From: Isosphaera sp.
GTDB taxonomy: Bacteria > Planctomycetota > Planctomycetia > Gemmatales > Gemmataceae
Direction: 5' to 3'
Assembly: GCA_013822345.1 (NCBI GenBank)
Contig: PNKH01000020.1
Coordinates: 1 to 64,000, forward strand
DNA length: 64,000 nucleotides
The translations under genes were made by a program, and so were the position numbers. Positions within the stretch are counted from its first letter, which is position 1. Every line of letters starts with the position of its first letter. Below are positions 13,704-24,261 of the stretch, in pieces. The notes under the pieces were generated by a model that was given only the letters and a program-made list of their open reading frames with translations, was not told the origin of the DNA and ran no database searches.

Positions 13704-16700
13704 ATGTCGGCCCGCGCCTGCCTCTCCGCCGCCGCCGTCCTCCTCGCGGCCGCCGCCCCGGCCGCCGCCCAGCCCGACTCCCCGCTCCGACTGGTCCGCG
13801 GGATCCGCGAGGCCGGGATGCCGGACCTCGCCCTGGAGTACCTCGCGGACGTCGAGAAGAGGCTGTCCCCGGCCGACCAGGTGCTGGTCCCGCTGGAGCG
13901 GGCCCGGTGCCAGCTCGACGCGGCCGAGGACGAGCCGGACGAGGGGACCCGGGCCGGGATGGTGAACGCCGCCAAGGTCGGGTTCAACACCTTCCTGGCG
14001 TCCGCCCCGAAGCACCCGCGGGCGGCCGAGGCGTCCCTGTCCCTGGCCCGGCTGACCGCGGTCGAGGCGAAGGCCCAGCTGAACCGGGCCCGGCGGATGG
14101 ACATCCCCCCGGCGCCCCCGGCCGACGCCCCGGACCGGGCCCGGAAGGAGGCCGAGCGGGACCGGGCCCTGAAGCTGCAGCGGGAGGAGGCGGACAAGGC
14201 CCGGCCGCTGTTCCAGCGCGCCAGCGGGCTGTTCGCCGACGCCGCCGCCCTGATCAAGACCCGGCTGGAGGACAAGTCCCTCGACCCGGTCGCCCGGCAG
14301 GCCCTGGAGCGGGAGAAGTTCGACGCCGACCTCGCCGCCGCCATCAACGTGTACAACCAGGCCGACACCGTGCTGGCGACCGGGGCCAAGGTCGGGCTGG
14401 AGCGGAACGCCCTGCTGGAGCGGGCCCAGAAGATGTTCGCCGAGCTGGCCAAGGGGCCGGTCTCCAGCCGGACGGTGTGGGTCGCCCGGGCCTGGATGGG
14501 CGAGCTGCTCGGGGACATGGGCCGGCCGAAGGACCAGGAGGCGGAGTTCGCGGCCATCGTCACCGCCCGGCAGGCGGAGGCCGACGAGGGGCGGCGGCTG
14601 GTCCAGTTCTTCCAGGTCCGGCGGCTGTACCTGGACGCCCTCCGGGAGGGGAACCCGACGAAACTCCCGACCGTGGTCACCGCCCTCCGCGGGTGGCTGG
14701 CCCGGCACGGGAACCTGCGGAAGCCGACCCCCGAGGCGCTCGCCACCCGGTACTACCTGGCGTTCACGCTGGAGCAGCAGGCCCTGTTCGCGACCGCCAA
14801 GCTGAAGCCGAACCCGGCGACCGGGGTGGTCGACCTGCCGGGCGACGCCCGGAGGCAGTACGAGGAGGCGGAGCGGCTGTACCGGGCCCTGACCCAGTCC
14901 GACCACGACTACACCGCCCGGGCCACCCAGCACCGGATGTTCGTCGTCCGCCGGCTGATCGGGGAGGCGGACAAGCCGGCCTCCGAGTACGCCACGTTCG
15001 AGACCGCCCAGATGGCGTCGCTCATCCAGATGGCCAAGCTGGCCGACGCCGAGGCGGTCCTCCGGGCGGCCGACGAGCCGGACGAGAACGACCCGTTCTG
15101 GGCCGGGGCCCGGGCCGCCCTGTCAACCGTCCGGGTGGCCGCCGAGGTGAAGGACCGGAAGGTGCGGGTGGTCGCCCTCCTGGAGCGGGCCCGGGAGCTG
15201 GCGACCGACAAGGACGCCCCGGCGGACGTGGCCGACACCCTGCTGAGGCTCGTCTACTTCTACCAGACGACGGACCAGCCGCACCAGGCGGCGGTGCTCG
15301 GGGAGCACGTCGCCCGGACGGTCCGGGCGGCCGGCGGGAAGGGGGCCCGGGCCGGGCTGCTGGCCCTGTTCGCGTTCACCGCCGCCGCCCCGCAGGTGAG
15401 GGCCGAGGCGGCCAACGACCCGGAGGCCCAGAAGGCGGTCGAGGCCCTCCGGGCGGTCGACCGGAGGCGGGCGATCGCGGTCGCCACGTTCGTCGACGAG
15501 GCGTTCCCGAAGGACCCGCTGGCCGACGCCGTCCGGCACCGGCTGGCCCTCCTGCTGGCGGCCGAGGGGCAGACGGACGCGGCGTTCGAGGCGGCGGCGA
15601 AGGTCGGCCCCGGGTACGCCGACGCCCTGACCGCCCGGCAGCTCCAGGCGGCCTTGGCCGGGGCCATCGTCCGCCCGGACAGCCCGGCCCCGGCGGACCG
15701 GAAGAAGGCGGTGTTCGGGCGGGCGGTGGCCGACCTGTCCCGGGTCCCGCGGCCGGCCCCGAACGCGTCCGAGGCGGACGTCCGCGGGTACCTCGGGTGC
15801 CGGCTCCGGCTGGCCGGGCTGTACCTGCTCCAGGCCCGGGTCGACCCGGGGGCGGAGGCCAAGGCCCCGGGGTACGGGGAGGCGCTGAGGATCGCCGACG
15901 AGGCCCTGGCCGCGGTCGGGCGGTTCGACGAGCTGGTGGAGAAGGGGAAGGGGCTGAACCTGGACGGGCTGGACCTGCACGCCCAGGCCCTGGAGCTGCG
16001 GACCCGCACCCTGTTCCTCCAGGCCCGCACCCAGGCCGACGCCGGGAAGGCGGACGAGGCGGCGGCGGCGGTCGAGGCGGCGGCCGCCGACGCGGCCCGG
16101 GGGCCGGTCCTGGACGACCGGGCGCGGAAGCTGACCCAGCCGGCCGACACCGACCCGCCCGAGGCGGCCACCCAGAAGGCCCGGGTGCAGGCCAACGCGG
16201 TGGCGGTCGACCGGTTCCGCCAGGACATCATCCTGGTCGGGTTCAAGCTCCGGTGCCTGCAGGGGAACGTGAAGGAGGCCCAGGCGATGCTCGACCGGCT
16301 GAAGGGGGCCGGCGGGGTGGAGGGGAACCAGAAGGCGCTGGAGGGGGTGACCCGGGAGCTGGCGGCGAAGATCGCCGACCTGAAGAAGCAGGGGATGGCG
16401 AAGGAGGCGGACGGGGTCGGGGCCGGCCTGGCCCTGTTGATCAAGGAGGTGTCCGCCCTGCCGAAGCTGGAGTCGACCACCGTCCTGTTCCTCGGCCAGA
16501 CCCTGGCCGCGGTCGGCCGGTACGACGAGGCGGTGGCCGAGTTCAAGAAGATCCCGGTCCCGAGCGAGCCGGACTGGCCGACCCGGAACCCGGACGAGTA
16601 CCCGCAGGAGAAGCGGGGGCAGATCCTGAAGGAGATCCGGGAGTACCGGTTCGCCCAGCTCAGCATCGCCAAGGCGTACCGCGGGGGCGGCAAGTTCGCG

Positions 16701-17348
16701 GAGGCCGAGGCCCTGCTGACGGGGGCGATCGGGGCCCCGGACAAGCAGGGGTACGCGTACCGCAGCCTGGACTTCAAGAAGGAGCTGGCCACCCTGTACG
16801 AGGCGAAGGGGGCGGCGGCCGCGGACCCGAAGGCGGCCGGGGCGGAGTGGGGCAAGGCGATGCGGGAGTGGACCGCCCTGACCAAGGTCGCCCAGGCGGT
16901 GATGGAGCTGCACCAGGGGCAGGAGCCGAAGCTGCCGGACCCGGCGAAGCGGCCGCCCGACGCGGAGAAGGAGAAGCAGGCGGCGTTCGACAAGGAGGTG
17001 GCGTCGTTCCCGGACCGGAAGAAGGGGTGGGACGAGCGGCGGCGGCAGCTCCAGGGGAACTACCTGGACGCGTTCTTCGAGACCAACCGGGTGGAGGTGG
17101 CGGCCAACACCCAGCTGGTCAAGGCCGGGCCGCGGATGGACGCCACCTACGAGCGGGTGGTGAAGAGTTGGATGTTCTTCGAGAACTCGTACAAGCTGGC
17201 CGAGCAGGAGGCGAAGGGGGAGGGGGTGGTGGCCCCGGCCGTCCGGGTCCGGTACGCCGACCTGCTCGACGCCCACCCCGGGCTGAAGGCCGCGTACAAG
17301 GCGGCCGGCGGGAAGTTCTTCCTGGACCGGCCGAAGCCGGCCGACTGA
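13704..17348 (+). CDS. Large secreted TPR/helical-repeat protein
   Basis: A 1214-residue protein with a signal peptide (MSARACLSAAAVLLAAAAP, cleavage near AAAQ at about residue 23). The mature chain is almost wholly helical with TPR-like units throughout, for example AGMPDLALEYLADVEKRLSP near the start, GQTDAAFEAAAKVGPGYADA in the middle and LAAVGRYDEAVAEFKKIPVP near residue 940. No catalytic motif is visible. Such proteins act as scaffolds; export suggests an envelope role. It is followed after 72 bases by another secreted helical-repeat gene on the same strand, probably the same transcript. Confidence 0.8.
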   Translation: MSARACLSAAAVLLAAAAPAAAQPDSPLRLVRGIREAGMPDLALEYLADVEKRLSPADQVLVPLERARCQLDAAEDEPDEGTRAGMVNAAKVGFNTFLASAPKHPRAAEASLSLARLTAVEAKAQLNRARRMDIPPAPPADAPDRARKEAERDRALKLQREEADKARPLFQRASGLFADAAALIKTRLEDKSLDPVARQALEREKFDADLAAAINVYNQADTVLATGAKVGLERNALLERAQKMFAELAKGPVSSRTVWVARAWMGELLGDMGRPKDQEAEFAAIVTARQAEADEGRRLVQFFQVRRLYLDALREGNPTKLPTVVTALRGWLARHGNLRKPTPEALATRYYLAFTLEQQALFATAKLKPNPATGVVDLPGDARRQYEEAERLYRALTQSDHDYTARATQHRMFVVRRLIGEADKPASEYATFETAQMASLIQMAKLADAEAVLRAADEPDENDPFWAGARAALSTVRVAAEVKDRKVRVVALLERARELATDKDAPADVADTLLRLVYFYQTTDQPHQAAVLGEHVARTVRAAGGKGARAGLLALFAFTAAAPQVRAEAANDPEAQKAVEALRAVDRRRAIAVATFVDEAFPKDPLADAVRHRLALLLAAEGQTDAAFEAAAKVGPGYADALTARQLQAALAGAIVRPDSPAPADRKKAVFGRAVADLSRVPRPAPNASEADVRGYLGCRLRLAGLYLLQARVDPGAEAKAPGYGEALRIADEALAAVGRFDELVEKGKGLNLDGLDLHAQALELRTRTLFLQARTQADAGKADEAAAAVEAAAADAARGPVLDDRARKLTQPADTDPPEAATQKARVQANAVAVDRFRQDIILVGFKLRCLQGNVKEAQAMLDRLKGAGGVEGNQKALEGVTRELAAKIADLKKQGMAKEADGVGAGLALLIKEVSALPKLESTTVLFLGQTLAAVGRYDEAVAEFKKIPVPSEPDWPTRNPDEYPQEKRGQILKEIREYRFAQLSIAKAYRGGGKFAEAEALLTGAIGAPDKQGYAYRSLDFKKELATLYEAKGAAAADPKAAGAEWGKAMREWTALTKVAQAVMELHQGQEPKLPDPAKRPPDAEKEKQAAFDKEVASFPDRKKGWDERRRQLQGNYLDAFFETNRVEVAANTQLVKAGPRMDATYERVVKSWMFFENSYKLAEQEAKGEGVVAPAVRVRYADLLDAHPGLKAAYKAAGGKFFLDRPKPAD

Positions 17349-17420
17349 GGGGCGGTTCCCCGTCCGCCTTCCGACGAGACACCCCGGGTGCCGGGCGGCA
17401 CCCACACCGAGGAGCACCCG

Positions 17421-18503
17421 ATGATCCGGTCGGCGGCGCGCGGGCTGGTGGCGATGACGGCGGTCGGCCTGGTCCTGCCGGCGGCGGCCCAGCCGCCGGC
17501 CGGGCCGGCGGACAAGGTCGTGGTCGCCCAGAAGGGCGGGACGACGAAGACGTTCGACGGGTACCTGAAGTTCACCCCGGCCGGGCTGCAGGTGGTCGGG
17601 ACGGACGGGAAGTCGACCCCGGTCGCCCCGGCGGACGTGCTGAAGGTGACCCCGGCGGACTTCGGGCCGGTGGACACGACGGCGGTGCGGGCGGCGGAGC
17701 AGGCGGAGGAGAAGAAGACGAAGGCGGACTACGAGCGGGCGCACCAGATGTACCGGGACCTGCGGGCGAAGGCGGCCGGGGCCCCGGAGCGGGTGCAGCG
17801 GTACCTGGACTACAAGGCGGCGCTGACCAAGGGCCGGGCGGCGGACGAGACCGGGTACGACGAGCGGTGGGCGGAGGCGGCGGACGGGGCGGCGAAGGAG
17901 TGGGCGGCGTTCGTGGCCGGGGCGAAGGGGTGGGAGGTGTGGCCGGCGACCCGGGCGGCGGCCCGGGTGTACGCCGAGCTGGGGAAGCACAACGAGGCGG
18001 CCGGGGTGTGGGGGCGGCTGGCGAAGAACCCGGAGGTGTCCCCGGACCTGCGGCTGGAGGCGGCGATCCAGCAGGTCGACGCCCAGGTGCGGGCGAAGGC
18101 GTACGCCCCGGCGTCGACGGCCGCGAAGGCCCTGCTCGGGGCGACCCCGGCCCCGCCGGGCCAGGCCCGGGACCGGCTGCAGGTGCTGGAGGCGGCGGCG
18201 GCGGCGGCCGGGAACGGCGACTTCGCGAAGGGGGTGGCGGACGTGGGGAAGCTGGTGGCCGGGACGAAGGACCCGGTGGTGCGGGGGGTGGGGCACGGGA
18301 TGCTGGGCGAGCTGCACCTGGCGGCCGGGAAGCCGCGGGAGGCGATGTGGGAGTTCCTGTGGGTGGAGACGGTGTACAACGCGGACCGGGACGAGGCGTT
18401 CAAGGCGATGTGCCGGCTGCCGGGGCTGTTCAAGGCGCAGGGGGACGAGGACCGGGAGAAGGCGTACCACGAGAAGCTGCGGCGGGCGCGCGGGGCGTTC
18501 TGA
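17421..18503 (+). CDS. Secreted helical-repeat protein
   Basis: A 360-residue exported protein. The ATG at 17421 begins the signal peptide MIRSAARGLVAMTAVGLVLP. Residues 35-85 form a small beta region (FDGYLKFTPAGLQVVGTDGK then DVLKVTPADFGPVD); the rest is helical and Ala-rich with TPR-like spacing, for example YAELGKHNEAAGVWGRLAKN and AAGKPREAMWEFLWVETVYN. It lies just downstream of the 1214-residue helical-repeat gene and probably works with it. An upstream GTG at 17388 would hide the signal and was rejected. The terminal region leads directly into tRNA-Ala. Confidence 0.78.
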   Translation: MIRSAARGLVAMTAVGLVLPAAAQPPAGPADKVVVAQKGGTTKTFDGYLKFTPAGLQVVGTDGKSTPVAPADVLKVTPADFGPVDTTAVRAAEQAEEKKTKADYERAHQMYRDLRAKAAGAPERVQRYLDYKAALTKGRAADETGYDERWAEAADGAAKEWAAFVAGAKGWEVWPATRAAARVYAELGKHNEAAGVWGRLAKNPEVSPDLRLEAAIQQVDAQVRAKAYAPASTAAKALLGATPAPPGQARDRLQVLEAAAAAAGNGDFAKGVADVGKLVAGTKDPVVRGVGHGMLGELHLAAGKPREAMWEFLWVETVYNADRDEAFKAMCRLPGLFKAQGDEDREKAYHEKLRRARGAF

Positions 18504-18570: not shown

Positions 18571-18643
18571 GGGGCGGTAGCTCAGCTGGTAGAGCGCTTC
18601 GTTCGCAACGAAGAGGCCGGGAGTTCGACTCTCCTCCGCTCCA
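18571..18643 (+). tRNA. tRNA-Ala (anticodon CGC)
   Basis: It folds into a complete cloverleaf: acceptor GGGGCGG (18571-18577) pairs with CCGCTCC (18636-18642) and contains G3-U70, the alanine identity pair. The D arm is GCTCAGCTGGTAGAGC. The anticodon stem CTTCG/CGAAG encloses the loop TTCGCAA, giving anticodon CGC for the codon GCG. The T arm is GGGAG-TTCGACT-CTCCT. The discriminator base is A; CCA is not encoded. The codon suits this high-GC genome. Confidence 0.95.
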
Positions 18644-18760
18644 CTGTGCCGGCCCGGGGTGACCCGGGCCGCCCGCGTTCCCGGCCCAGCCGAAGCCCTA
18701 CAATTCCAAGCGCTTTCCGGCTCGACCAACCTCCCGCCCCGCGCCGCCCGGGGTGGGAGT

Positions 18761-19014: not shown

Positions 19015-19136
19015 CGAAGCAATCGCACACGGATAAAGATGATGAAGACCGGATCAAAGGGATCAGACAGAATATTGATTTTGTCTGATCCTCTGCATCC
19101 TGCCTGAATCGTCTTTATCCGTGTGCGATTGCTTCG
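19015..19136. repeat. AT-rich nested palindrome in the nitrate operon leader
   Basis: The outer perfect 25-base arms (19015-19039 and 19112-19136) carry the core AATCGCACACGGATAAAGA. An inner hairpin has 10-base arms GGATCAGACA (19060-19069) and TGTCTGATCC (19082-19091). It is far more AT-rich than the surroundings and ends at the GAGGAG ribosome-binding site of the Rieske gene. It may be a MITE-like insert or a leader regulatory hairpin. Confidence 0.88.
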
Positions 19137-19147
19137 AGGAGCTACCC

Positions 19148-19477
19148 ATGACCGTGTCCGCCGTCCGCGTCCGCCTGTGCGTCCTCGACGACATCGCCAC
19201 CGGGCTGGGCCGGGCGTTCGCGGTCGGCGGCCGGCGGCTGGCCGTGTTCCGCGGGCGGGCCGGGGAGGTGTTCGCGGTGGACGCGGAGTGCCCGCACAAG
19301 GGCGGGCCGCTGGCCGACGGGATGCTGGTCGGCGGCCAGGTCGTCTGCCCGCTCCACACCGCCAGGTTCGACGGCCGGACCGGGGCGTGCGACCAGCCGG
19401 GGCTGTGCGGGGCGGTCGGGGCGTACCCGGCGGAGGTGCGCGACGGGGCGGTGTACGTCACGGTGCCGGCCGAATGA
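19148..19477 (+). CDS. Rieske [2Fe-2S] protein, NirD-like small subunit
   Basis: A 109-residue soluble Rieske protein. The cluster ligands are CPHKGG (about residues 43-48) and CPLHTARFD (about 62-70), the Cys-x-His ... Cys-x2-His arrangement of NirD-type ferredoxin subunits. NirD proteins normally partner NirB nitrite reductase, but here the protein heads a nitrate reductase operon with no nitrite reductase gene visible, so it may deliver electrons to the molybdoenzyme. Start: the ATG at 19148 with GAGGAG at 19136-19141. Its stop overlaps the next start (ATGA). A palindrome occupies the leader directly upstream. Confidence 0.87.
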   Translation: MTVSAVRVRLCVLDDIATGLGRAFAVGGRRLAVFRGRAGEVFAVDAECPHKGGPLADGMLVGGQVVCPLHTARFDGRTGACDQPGLCGAVGAYPAEVRDGAVYVTVPAE

Positions 19478-20097
19478 CGCCCGCCCCGCTAGCCCTGGCC
19501 GACGCCGCGCCCGCCGGGCTCGCGGTCCGCACCCACTGCCCGTACTGCGCGTTCCAGTGCGGGGTGCGGATCGGCGAGGGGTTCGGGACGGACGAGCTGA
19601 GCGTGTCCGGCGACCCGCACTTCCCGGTGAACAACGGCGAACTCTGCATCAAGGGGTGGACCTCGGCCGCGCTGCTCGGCCACCCGCGGCGGGTCACGTC
19701 GCCGCAGCTCCGGGCCGCGGACGGGTCGTGGCAGGCGGCGTCGTGGGACCAGGCCCTCGACTTCGTCGCCGACCGGATGCGCGACCTCCGCGACCGGCAC
19801 GGGCCGGACGCGAACGGCGTGTTCGGGTCGGGGGCGCTGACGAACGAGACGGCGTACCTGCTCGGGAAGTTCGCCCGGGTGGCCCTGGGCACCGCGAACA
19901 TCGACTACAACGGCCGGTACTGCATGTCGTCCGCGGCGGCGGCCCAGAACCGGGCGTTCGGCCTCCACCGCGGGCTGCCGTTCCCGGTCGCCGACGTCGA
20001 GCACGCCGGGGTGGTGCTCCTCGCCGGGGCGAACCCGGCCGACACCCTCCCGCCGATGACCCAGTGGTTCGACCGGCGGCGGCGGGCGGCCGGATGA
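19474..20097 (+). CDS. nasA: Assimilatory nitrate reductase, N-terminal part ([4Fe-4S] domain)
   Basis: A 207-residue N-terminal third of a NasA/NarB-type molybdopterin oxidoreductase, which reduces nitrate to nitrite in the cytoplasm. The [4Fe-4S] ligands are in THCPYCAFQCGVRI (Cys-x2-Cys-x3-Cys) with the fourth Cys in ELCIKGWTS. The molybdopterin domain begins with VTSPQLRAADGSWQAASWDQ and includes GSGALTNETAYLLGKFAR and NIDYNGRYCMSSAAAA. The frame ends by TGA within CGGATGATCG just after MTQWFDRRRRAAG; the continuing sequence of the family is found in the next ORF, whose ATG overlaps this stop. Together the pieces give the usual full length. Either a frameshift or a true two-subunit split. 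Confidence 0.85.
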   Translation: MTPAPLALADAAPAGLAVRTHCPYCAFQCGVRIGEGFGTDELSVSGDPHFPVNNGELCIKGWTSAALLGHPRRVTSPQLRAADGSWQAASWDQALDFVADRMRDLRDRHGPDANGVFGSGALTNETAYLLGKFARVALGTANIDYNGRYCMSSAAAAQNRAFGLHRGLPFPVADVEHAGVVLLAGANPADTLPPMTQWFDRRRRAAG

Positions 20098-21596
20098 TCG
20101 TCGCCGACCCGCGCCGGACCGCCACCGCCCGCGCCGCCGACCTGTTCCTGCAACTCACCCCCGGCACCGACCTGGCTCTGGCGAACGGGCTCCTCTTCCT
20201 CGCGATCGAAGAGAACCTGGTCGACCGCCGGTACGTCGCCGACCGGACGACCGAGTTCGATGCCGCCCGGCGGGTCGCGCTGACGTACGACCCGGCGCGG
20301 GTCGAGCGGCTGACCGGCGTCCCGGAACTCGACCTGCGGAAGGCGGTGCGGTGGCTGGCCGCGGCGCGCGGGGCGATGATCCTGACCGGCCGCGGGGCGG
20401 AGCAGCATAGCAAGGGCGTGGACACGGTCCACGCCTGGATCAACCTGGCCCTGGCGCCCGGCAAGGTCGGTAAGCCGAACGGCGGGTACGGGTGCCTGAC
20501 CGGGCAGGGGAACGGGCAGGGCGGCCGCGAGCACGGGCAGAAGGCTGACCAACTCCCCGGTTACCGGCTGATCGAGAACGACGCCCACCGCGAGGCGGTG
20601 GCGCGGGTGTGGGGTGTCAGCTCGGTGTCACTGCCCCGGAAGGGGAAGAGCGCGTTCGAGTTGCTGGACGACGCGGCTGTCCGCGGGCTGTTCGTCATGG
20701 GGTCGAACGTGGCGGTCGCGTCGCCGCACCTGGCCCGCATCGAGCAGCGGCTGAAGGCGCTCGACCTGCTCGTCGTCTGTGACGCCTTCCCGAACGAGAC
20801 ATCGGACCTCGGCCACGTCTTCCTGCCGGTCCACCAGTGGGCGGAGCAGGAGGGGACGATGACCAACCTCGAGGGCCGGGTGATCCGCCGACGCGTGGTC
20901 GCCGACGCTCCCCGTGGGGTCGCCGGCGACCTCGACGTGCTGCGGGAGTTGGCCGAGCGCCTCGGCTGCGGCGAGCGGTTCGCGTTCCACACCCCGCGCG
21001 CGGTGTTCGACGAGTTCCGCCGCGCCACCGCCGGCCCGGCCGACTACGCGGGCATCACCTACGAGCGGATCGACGCCGAGGACGGCGTCTTCTGGCCGTG
21101 CCCGGCGGAAGACCACCCCGGCACCCCGCGGCTGTTCGCGGACCGGTTCGCCCACCCCGACGGGCGGGCCAGGTTCTTCGCGGTCGAGCACCGGCCGGCG
21201 GGCGAGGAGCCGGACCCCGAGTACCCGCTGTTCCTGACCACCGGGCGGTACAAGGAGCACTACAACTCCGGCGCCCAGACGCGGCTCGTCGAGAAGCTGC
21301 GGCGGGCGAAGCCGGTGCCGCGGCTGCAACTCCACCCGCGGCTCGCCCGGCAGCACGCGATCCGCCCGAACAGCCGGGTGGCGGTCGAGAGCCGGCGCGG
21401 GCGGGTCGAGTTCGCGGCCGAGGTGACGGCGGACATTCGGCCCGACACGGTGTTCGCCCCGTTCCACTGGGGCGGGCGGGAGGCGGCGAACCGGCTCACC
21501 GGGGCGGCCCTCGACCCGGTCAGCCGGATGCCGGAGTTCAAGCTGGCGGCGGTCCGGATCGCCGGCGTCCGCCCGGCCGCGGAGGGCGACCGGTGA
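20094..21596 (+). CDS. nasA: Assimilatory nitrate reductase, C-terminal part (molybdopterin domains)
   Basis: A 500-residue remainder of the NasA/NarB-type enzyme. It begins MIVADPRRTATARAADLFLQ, the strand that in intact homologues follows directly on the end of the previous ORF. It then has GRGAEQHSKGVDTVHAWINL, NGGYGCLTGQGNGQGGREHG, MGSNVAVASPHLARIEQRLK, the EGTMTNLEGRV segment, and a C-terminal molydopterin dinucleotide-binding domain (LFLTTGRYKEHYNSGAQTR). No residues appear lost at the junction. The ATG overlaps the upstream stop as ATGA, the same geometry as the other junctions in this operon, so it could be translated by coupling. It ends in GTGA with the reductase gene. Confidence 0.85.
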   Translation: MIVADPRRTATARAADLFLQLTPGTDLALANGLLFLAIEENLVDRRYVADRTTEFDAARRVALTYDPARVERLTGVPELDLRKAVRWLAAARGAMILTGRGAEQHSKGVDTVHAWINLALAPGKVGKPNGGYGCLTGQGNGQGGREHGQKADQLPGYRLIENDAHREAVARVWGVSSVSLPRKGKSAFELLDDAAVRGLFVMGSNVAVASPHLARIEQRLKALDLLVVCDAFPNETSDLGHVFLPVHQWAEQEGTMTNLEGRVIRRRVVADAPRGVAGDLDVLRELAERLGCGERFAFHTPRAVFDEFRRATAGPADYAGITYERIDAEDGVFWPCPAEDHPGTPRLFADRFAHPDGRARFFAVEHRPAGEEPDPEYPLFLTTGRYKEHYNSGAQTRLVEKLRRAKPVPRLQLHPRLARQHAIRPNSRVAVESRRGRVEFAAEVTADIRPDTVFAPFHWGGREAANRLTGAALDPVSRMPEFKLAAVRIAGVRPAAEGDR

Positions 21597-23011
21597 GGCG
21601 GCGACTCGCGATCCTCGGGAACGGCCCGGCCGCCGGCCGGCTGCTCGACGACTTGGCCACCCGCGGCGGGCTCGGGGCGTTCGACGTGGCCGTGTACGGC
21701 GAGGAGCCGCACGGGAACTACAACCGCATCCTGGTCGGCCGGGTGGTGACCGGGGCCGGGGTGGACGAGATCACGACGAAGCCGGCGGACTGGTACGCGA
21801 CCCGCGGCGTCACGTTCCACCGCGGGGTGAAGGTCGAGCGGCTCGACCCCGCCGCCCGCCGGCTCGTCACCTCGACCGGCGAAGAACACCCCTACGACAC
21901 CGCGGTGTTCGCGACCGGCAGCGCGGCGGCGGTCCCGCCGGTGGACGGGTTGCGCCAGCCCGACGGGTCGCCGCGCGGCGGGGTGCACGTCTTCCGCACC
22001 GCCGCCGACTGCGAGGCGATCCGCGGGCGGTCGCGGCCGGGGGCGAGTGCGGTGGTGGTCGGCGGCGGGCTGCTCGGGCTGGAGGCGGCGAAGGCGCTGT
22101 CGGACATCGGGCTGCACGTGACGGTGCTGCACCGCGGCGAGACGCTGATGAACGCCCAACTCGACCGGTTCGGCGGCGGGCTGCTGCGGCGGGCGATCGA
22201 GGGCGTCGGGGTGTTCGTCCGGACCGGGACGACGGCCGCGGAGGTGATCGGGAACGGGAAGGTCGAGGCGGTCCGGCTGGACGCCGGCGGGGTGCTGCCG
22301 GCGGACCTGGTGGTGTTCGCGTGCGGGGTGGTGCCGCGGGTCGAGGCGGCGAAGGCGTCGGGGGTGCCGGTCGGGCGGGGCATCCTGGTGAACGACCGGC
22401 TGGCGACGGCGGTGCCGGGGGTGTACGCGGTCGGCGAGTGCGCGGAGCACGCCGGGGTGGTGTACGGGCTGGTCGCGCCGATCTGGGAGCAGGCGGCGGT
22501 GCTGGCCGACGTGCTGACCGGGGCGAACCCGCAGGCCCGATACCGCGGGTCGAAGATGTACGCCCGGCTGAAGGTGGCCGGGGTCGAGGTGGCGAGCATG
22601 GGCCGGGTCGAGCCGGAGTTCGACTCGGACGAGGTGGTGCAGGTGTTCGAGGACCGCCGCGGGGTGTACCGGAAGCTGATCGTCCGGGACGGCCGGCTGG
22701 TCGGGGCGATGCTCGTCGGGTGCACGGCGGCGGCCCCCGGCCTGGTGCAGCTGTTCGACCGCGGCGACCCGCTCCCGCCGAACCGCCTCGACGTGCTGGC
22801 GACCGCCGGCGGGTCGGCCGCTGACCCGGAGGTGTGCAACTGCCACCGGGTGACCGAGTCGGCGCTGGTGGCCGCGGTCCGCGGCGGGTGTTCTACCCTC
22901 CCGATGTTGGCCGACGCGACCCGGGCCGGGACCGGGTGCGGGTCGTGCCGCGGCCGGCTCGCCGGGCTGATCGCCGAGCACGCCCCGGGCGTTCCCACGA
23001 GGACGACATGA
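21593..23011 (+). CDS. FAD/NAD(P)H reductase with BFD-like [2Fe-2S] domain (NasB-like)
   Basis: A 472-residue flavoprotein begun by GTG in a GTGA overlap with the nitrate reductase stop. The FAD-binding Rossmann motif LAILGNGPAAGRLLDDLA is N-terminal, the NAD(P)H site VVVGGGLLGLEAAKALSDIG lies near residue 155, and the GVYAVGECAEH flavin block near 275. A NirB-type middle domain follows, and the C terminus carries the four-cysteine BFD-like [2Fe-2S] site in EVCNCHRVTE and GTGCGSCRGRL. This matches the electron-transfer subunit of assimilatory nitrate reductase, passing electrons from NAD(P)H to the molybdoenzyme. No sirohaem domain is present, so it is not a nitrite reductase. Confidence 0.88.
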   Translation: MRRRLAILGNGPAAGRLLDDLATRGGLGAFDVAVYGEEPHGNYNRILVGRVVTGAGVDEITTKPADWYATRGVTFHRGVKVERLDPAARRLVTSTGEEHPYDTAVFATGSAAAVPPVDGLRQPDGSPRGGVHVFRTAADCEAIRGRSRPGASAVVVGGGLLGLEAAKALSDIGLHVTVLHRGETLMNAQLDRFGGGLLRRAIEGVGVFVRTGTTAAEVIGNGKVEAVRLDAGGVLPADLVVFACGVVPRVEAAKASGVPVGRGILVNDRLATAVPGVYAVGECAEHAGVVYGLVAPIWEQAAVLADVLTGANPQARYRGSKMYARLKVAGVEVASMGRVEPEFDSDEVVQVFEDRRGVYRKLIVRDGRLVGAMLVGCTAAAPGLVQLFDRGDPLPPNRLDVLATAGGSAADPEVCNCHRVTESALVAAVRGGCSTLPMLADATRAGTGCGSCRGRLAGLIAEHAPGVPTRTT

Positions 23012-24261
23012 CCGAAGCCCCCGACTCCGACGCCGGCCCGCGGACCCGCGTGCTGTGGCTGTCCACGACCGCGTTCACCCTGCTGTTCGCCGTCTGGCTG
23101 ATGCTCGGCGTCCTCGGCGTCCGGGTGCGCGACGAACTCCACCTCAGCCCGGCGCAGTTCGGCTGGCTCCTCGCCACCGCGATCCTGGCCGGGTCGCTGC
23201 CGCGGCTCCACTTCGGCATCTGGGCCGACCGGTACGGCGGCCGGCTCGTCCTCACCCTGCTGCTGCTCGGCTGCGCCGTCCCGACGGCCCTGCTGGCGTG
23301 GGCCACCACCTACCCGGAACTGCTGGTCTGTGCGGCGCTGTTCGGGCTGGCGGGGAACTCGTTCACGGCCGGCATCTCGTGGGTGTCGGCATGGTACCCG
23401 CAGCGGTCGAAGGGGACGGCGCTGGGGGTGTTCGGGGCGGGGAACGTCGGGGCGGCGGCGACGAAATTCCTCGGGCCGGTGATCCTGGCGGCGGTGCCGG
23501 CGGCGGGGTTCTTCGGCGGCCTGCTCCCGGGCGGGTGGCGGTTCGTCCCGGTCGCCTACGCGGTGATGCTGGTGGGGATGGCGGCGGCGGTGTGGTTCCT
23601 GAGCCCGCGTCCGGACCGGTGCCCCGGCCGCGGCCGGACGACGCGGGAACTCTTGGCCCCGATCCGGCACGCCCGGGTGTGGCGGTTCAGCCTGTACTAC
23701 GTGATGGTGTTCGGGGCGTACGTGGCGCTGGCGGCGTACCTGCCGCGGTACTACGTGGACGTGTACGGGCTGCCGCTGGCGACCGCCGGGTACCTGACGG
23801 CGCTGTTCATCTTCCCGGCAAGCCTGCTGCGTCCGCTCGGGGGGTGGTTGTCGGACCGGTACGGGCCGCGGGCGGTGACGTACACGGTGTTCGTGACGAT
23901 GGCGGCGGCGCTGGCGGTGGTATCGGCGGTGGACCCGGGGCCGTGGGGGTTCACGGCGCTGATGGTGGTGGTCGGGTGCGGGATGGGGGTCGGCAAGGCG
24001 TCGGTGTTCAAGTACGTGCCGGACTACTTCCCGCGGGACGTGGGGGCGGTGGGGGGCCTGGTGGGGATGCTCGGGGCACTGGGCGGGTTCGTCTTGCCGC
24101 CGGCGTTCGGGGCGCTGGGCCGGGCGACCGGGTCGCCGCAGGCGGCGTTCCTGGCGCTGTTGGGGCTGACGCTGGCGAGCCTGGGGTGGCTGCACCTGGC
24201 GGTCCGCCGTCTGACGGCCGCGGCGCGGGCGACCCCGGCGGCCGAGCCGGTCGCGGCCTGA
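23008..24261 (+). CDS. NarK/NasA-family nitrate/nitrite MFS transporter
   Basis: An inner-membrane major facilitator of 417 residues with about 12 hydrophobic segments. The nitrate/nitrite porter hallmarks are visible: PRLHFGIWADRYGGR between helices 2 and 3, with its Arg, and the Gly-rich helix GVFGAGNVGAAATKFLGP, plus GCGMGVGKASVFKYVPDYFP in the second half. It imports nitrate (possibly exporting nitrite) for the reductase encoded upstream. The ATG overlaps the upstream stop (ATGA). This ends the operon; the approximately 190 bases downstream hold nothing recognisable before the AT-rich leader of the ATPase gene. Confidence 0.92.
   Translation: MTEAPDSDAGPRTRVLWLSTTAFTLLFAVWLMLGVLGVRVRDELHLSPAQFGWLLATAILAGSLPRLHFGIWADRYGGRLVLTLLLLGCAVPTALLAWATTYPELLVCAALFGLAGNSFTAGISWVSAWYPQRSKGTALGVFGAGNVGAAATKFLGPVILAAVPAAGFFGGLLPGGWRFVPVAYAVMLVGMAAAVWFLSPRPDRCPGRGRTTRELLAPIRHARVWRFSLYYVMVFGAYVALAAYLPRYYVDVYGLPLATAGYLTALFIFPASLLRPLGGWLSDRYGPRAVTYTVFVTMAAALAVVSAVDPGPWGFTALMVVVGCGMGVGKASVFKYVPDYFPRDVGAVGGLVGMLGALGGFVLPPAFGALGRATGSPQAAFLALLGLTLASLGWLHLAVRRLTAAARATPAAEPVAA

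Follow-up and report, generated by a model that had tools for sequence, protein, structure and literature searches.

The closest described relatives of the enzyme considered here are the NasC-type nitrate reductase catalytic subunits of the DMSO reductase superfamily, represented by the NCBIfam profile NF047855. Within this superfamily, a molybdopterin enzyme distributed over two polypeptides is known from formylmethanofuran dehydrogenase, as FwdB/FwdD. Two further lines of work concern genes interrupted at an overlap. In bacteria and archaea, ribosomes are documented to terminate and reinitiate at overlaps of this sort (PMC6728339). Antonov et al., in their survey of prokaryotic frame transitions, expected that unclustered cases validated by similarity stem from sequencing errors and not from indel mutations (PMC3711429). 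Among the literature matches listed, none described a split or broken nitrate reductase or NasC protein in this group.

In the window (the whole stretch of 64,000 nucleotides that was analysed), a NasC-type gene lies in two frames of 207 and 500 codons joined at an ATGA, a layout that a first-pass annotation had noted and that is present in the sequence. The comparisons below indicate that this is very probably an ordinary single-chain gene carrying a frameshift specific to this genome, whether that arose by recent mutation or through an error in the assembly. The features of the operon are the following:

19121-19477, + strand: opening gene of the operon, a NirD/MocE-like Rieske [2Fe-2S] protein (PF00355, E 1.4e-16)
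19474-20097, + strand: ORF1 (207 aa), encoding the N-terminal portion of the NasC-type enzyme, ATG start and TGA stop; contains the Fe4S4 domain, the RYC motif and the first part of PF00384
20074-20093, + strand: site of the frame break, the CGG-rich linker of 20 nt that joins WFD to ORF2
20094-20097, + strand: ATGA overlap of the ORF1 stop with the ORF2 start
20094-21596, + strand: ORF2 (500 aa), encoding the C-terminal portion of the NasC-type enzyme, ATG start and TGA stop; contains what remains of PF00384 together with PF01568, a dinucleotide-binding domain
21593-23011, + strand: FAD/NAD(P) oxidoreductase with a BFD-type [2Fe-2S] domain, 472 aa, resembling the N-terminal half of NirB
23008-24261, + strand: MFS transporter, 417 aa (PF07690, E 5.9e-40)

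Domain content, family and neighbourhood

A Pfam search placed the Fe4S4 domain PF04879 at residues 18-63 of ORF1 and revealed that PF00384 is split mid-domain, with positions 1-126 in ORF1 and 140-353 in ORF2. The two halves match NF047855 at positions 21-206 and 212-707 of 708, bearing out the earlier remark that their combined length is the usual full one, with no domain lost. From the cut in PF00384 and this profile coverage, it follows that the break runs through one domain and that little is missing beyond the junction. The RYCMSS motif lies within ORF1, and its Cys, which presumably serves as the Mo ligand, is invariant across 28 aligned relatives. Neither half of the gene contains a further stop or shift, and no second close copy was found in this genome, where the other matches to either half were weak (27-32% identity).

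NF047855 was the top profile match for both ORF1 (186.3 bits) and ORF2 (564.5 bits), giving a sum of 751 bits, and four intact relatives tested against the same profile scored 779-835 bits. The curated equivalog cut-off of 1100 bits was reached neither by the window halves nor by these four relatives; since intact relatives also remain below it, the shortfall in the window is not caused by the frame break. On profile scores, the enzyme is assigned as NasC-type and not as a confirmed NasC equivalog. Its named homologues include proteins from Fimbriiglobus (68-69% identity) and Zavarzinella (65%; Gemmataceae), which points to a Gemmataceae-like planctomycete as the probable host.

The other junctions of the operon had been described as ATGA or GTGA, and this is what we observed, with ATGA at 19474, GTGA at 21593 and ATGA at 23008. 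The Rieske gene also matched TIGR02377 and TIGR02378 below their cut-offs, and its true start may be 19148. Across the 18 relative loci compared, a Rieske homologue was present at 16 (L013 and L014 gave no Rieske match) and a homologue of the FAD/NAD(P) oxidoreductase at all 18, counting for L032 a more distant upstream copy (45%), as the adjacent one is cut by the contig end. This oxidoreductase is the presumed electron donor, and the presumed substrate of the MFS transporter is nitrate/nitrite, judging from its place in the operon.

Just upstream of the operon lies a tRNA-Ala(CGC) gene (18571-18644), the sole tRNA found in the window. Two upstream ORFs, at 13704-17348 (1214 aa) and 17388-18503 (371 aa), had no Pfam match at E 0.001. 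Elsewhere in the genome, contig C9 carries a candidate nitrite/sulfite reductase of the NIR_SIR family.

The reading frame in relatives and the position of the break

The frame was compared at 110 relative loci, comprising 15 genus copies, 15 loci from the family, order and class, and the best 80 of 582 from named genomes. The 15 genus copies are carried by 14 of the 18 other genomes in the genus set. At one locus (L028) the match lies at a contig end and the N-terminal half was not found, which leaves 109 loci with both halves; 108 of these are distinct, as L036 and L002 represent a single contig. Comparison of the site in related genomes, a check proposed in the first-pass annotation, revealed a shared frame for the two halves across the junction at all 109 loci, whose identity to ORF2 ranges from 30 to 77%; this outcome comes near the refuting condition set in that annotation. 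All 15 genus copies (about 69-77% identity to ORF2 and 54-74% to ORF1) were continuous, and 14 of the 15 family, order and class loci likewise have the two halves in one frame, L028 being the one without its N-terminal half. The break seen in the window occurred in none of the 109 testable loci.

No stop separated the halves at 107 of the 109 loci; in the other two, L025 and L030, a TGA occupies the catalytic position. These two are formate dehydrogenase-like paralogues (36-37% identity) with no break at the junction. Their TGA lies 57-58 codons upstream of the start that matches ORF2, at the place of the catalytic Cys, in the context CNRT-TGA-HAPS (genomes G019 and G032), and is probably read as selenocysteine. 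In G001, G004 and G022 the open frames are short (546-547 aa), which suggests that these may be further cases of the kind.

Between the WF(D/E) motif and the residue at the ORF2 start, the linker measures 24 nt (eight codons) in 15 of 15 genus copies, compared with 20 nt in the window. The net deficit is therefore 4 nt, that is, one codon plus one base, within a CGG-rich stretch. The suggestion of a frameshift in the CGG run is supported, with the difference that the genus copies have four more bases and not one. In more distant relatives the length of the linker varies, indicating that the loop tolerates length change. The codon at the ORF2 start is ATG in two of the 110 loci counted, the window and L039, and encodes Leu in all 15 genus copies. 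Across the 36 columns that are Leu throughout the genus copies, the window has Leu in 34, Met only at the ORF2 start, and Pro once.

The break was placed on a structure predicted for L031, the homologue from Fimbriiglobus (28 sequences, mean pLDDT 85.8). In this model, the shortened linker maps to residues 201-208, covering the end of helix 193-204 and the following turn, and the first residue of ORF2 maps to residue 209, just inside the strand 208-212 that leads into the conserved D213-P-R. A chain break at this helix-end turn would, according to the model, be structurally tolerable in principle.

Chance junctions, constraint and assembly quality

How often a frameshift yields a tidy overlap by chance was estimated by placing random deletions in 520 ORFs of the same genome (at least 300 codons each; 20,800 trials per deletion size). 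With 1-nt deletions, the first stop in the old frame formed NTGA in 95% of trials, ATG, GTG or TTG followed by A in 49%, and ATGA in 8.5%. The results for 4-nt deletions were the same within 0.3 points (ATGA 8.5-8.6% across both sizes), and in the 2-nt control all three forms were absent. The high NTGA rate arises because a TGA in that frame always sits on an in-frame NTG codon. When the stop was also required to lie within 24 nt of the deletion, ATGA occurred in about 2% and start-capable NTGA in about 10% of the simulated cases. At most, the neat ATGA junction lends modest support to selected coupling.

Signs of decay were mixed. In trees restricted to the 17 sequences with all four genes (the window and 16 loci), the branch leading to the window accounted for 10.1% in ORF1, the highest share, 6.8% in ORF2, 7.7% in the Rieske protein and 6.0% in the FAD protein. 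The ORF2 share is thus ordinary and, like the lack of further stops or shifts, speaks against a dead gene. At genus-invariant columns the window departs in 13 of 322 (two of them at the junction) and each of the 15 relatives in 0-7 of 309-316, a count that favours relatives with close sisters by lowering their numbers. Of 220 columns that at least 95% of 91 relatives have in common, the window departs at 6, two of which sit at the junction or at a gap; the relatives average 2.03 such departures and reach 8 at most. These 91 were drawn from 95 relatives after dropping L036 as a duplicate of L002, and L046, L079 and L092, where the motif was not found. The window has three unique departures at otherwise invariant columns, joint highest among 92 sequences; they are D to H at ORF1 residue 165, and A to G and E to Q at ORF2 residues 240 and 252. 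A slight relaxation is therefore possible. The break, if real, is recent.

The source assembly consists of 226 contigs and is 95.2% complete. A frameshift survey covering 1.26 Mb of the 7.47 Mb was run against 1494 reference ORFs, which came from the 80 named loci and from another genome of the genus (1.2 Mb of it). It flagged the junction alone, with no other frameshift-like site in 151 testable conserved blocks (163 kb), and the reverse test gave none in 115 blocks. By the rule of three, other detectable frameshifts number fewer than about 2 per 100 kb, detectable meaning those that leave two scoring segments, as shifts near gene ends would escape. A generally poor assembly is unsupported, there being no further frameshift-like site in the 151 conserved blocks. 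If a single base were missing, the linker would still be one codon short of that in all 15 congeners; a pure 1-nt error would thus have to be joined by a real change of 3 nt. One event, whether real or erroneous, is a simpler explanation of the 4-nt deficit than a lone 1-nt error.

Weighing the explanations and comparison with known systems

The first-pass annotation had offered either a genuine split enzyme or a frameshift, and the relatives favour the latter, with one frame at 109 of 109 loci; a natural split, unseen in any relative examined, keeps a small probability for this one genome. A split inherited within the genus, with a separate Fe-S subunit, gained no support beyond the superfamily precedent of FwdB/FwdD, which is divided at another place in the description of PMC7331816. 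It is contradicted by the single frame in 15 of 15 genus copies and in 14 of 15 family, order and class loci. Shared by none of the relatives examined and refuted within the sampled genus, it was rejected, and its probability is negligible. Hardly better placed is recoding in the CGG run, be it programmed -1 frameshifting by the ribosome or slippage during transcription, through which a full-length protein would be produced. The -1 direction and the location in a CGG repeat run just 5' of the stop are what such a signal would offer, but no X_XXY_YYZ heptamer occurs in the ORF1 frame anywhere in ORF1, the longest homopolymer between 20040 and 20110 is 3, the fold of 20030-20110 is ordinary (z -0.96; DNA parameters), and the site is absent from all relatives examined (0 of 109 testable). 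With motif, long homopolymer and site conservation all absent, the slippage invoked in the first-pass annotation was discarded as very improbable.

A functional two-chain enzyme, produced by gene fission in this lineage, deserves more weight. Ribosomes would finish ORF1 at its TGA, restart at the overlapping ATG to translate ORF2, and the chains would reassemble through the domain they share. The ATGA junction sits in an operon whose remaining junctions are ATGA or GTGA, termination-reinitiation at overlaps of this kind is documented in the account cited above (PMC6728339), and the break falls at a helix-end turn in the relative's model, with ORF2 beginning just inside strand 208-212. Both halves remain 69-77% (ORF2) and 54-74% (ORF1) identical to the genus copies and show no further lesion. 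ORF2 also opens with Met at a position that is Leu in all 15 congeners, and random shifts give an ATGA within 24 nt in about 2% of cases; the two points are aspects of a single fact, on account of which the two-chain reading retains a small share of the probability. Against it, the arrangement is common to none of the 108 distinct relatives, the break passes through a single Pfam domain, departures from conserved columns are raised (13/322, 6/220 and three unique), and such shifts produce ATGA by chance alone in 8.5% of cases and a start-capable NTGA in 49%. On balance, two functional chains are unlikely. The more specific proposal of a recent functional fission of a bis-MGD nitrate reductase, divided inside its cofactor-binding domain, in which the 4-nt deletion was tolerated via a Leu-to-Met change creating the ATGA restart, is less likely again.

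The reading we prefer, a single-chain NasC-type gene with a genome-specific frameshift, would account for the layout in two steps. A net 4-nt deficit in the CGG-rich stretch, confined to this genome sequence, would shift the reading frame. The old frame would then end at the next NTGA, here ATGA, and the downstream half would come to mimic a coupled gene. On this reading, the nearby ATG and the sole Met among the 36 all-Leu columns are put down to chance. As to the origin of the shift, a local error in the consensus has close to an even chance; a recent real indel, disabling the enzyme or neutral in the sampled strain, is a serious possibility that we rate somewhat lower.

If the split were real, it would represent gene fission caught in the act, with a complex molybdoenzyme assembled from chains cut inside a domain. 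As it most likely is not, the locus chiefly carries a caution: since simulated shifts in this GC-rich genome gave NTGA in 95% and a start-capable form in half, little can be concluded about coupling from a tidy overlap between two parts of the same protein.

Compared with NasC-type catalytic subunits (NF047855; DMSO reductase superfamily), the protein is alike in its profile span, positions 21-707 of 708, and differs in that its coding frame is interrupted after residue 207. With FwdB/FwdD of formylmethanofuran dehydrogenase it shares the distribution of a superfamily molybdopterin enzyme over two polypeptides. In that system, as PMC7331816 outlines it, the separate chain resembles the fourth domain, whereas the break in the window lies inside PF00384 and no relative examined has it. 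A further parallel is with the fs-genes that Antonov et al. 2013 (GeneTack; PMC3711429) class as singletons: the window likewise holds an unclustered transition spanned by a protein domain. It differs from these in that the ORF2 start falls on the ORF1 stop, a coincidence that in their account supports coupling when a whole cluster conserves it.
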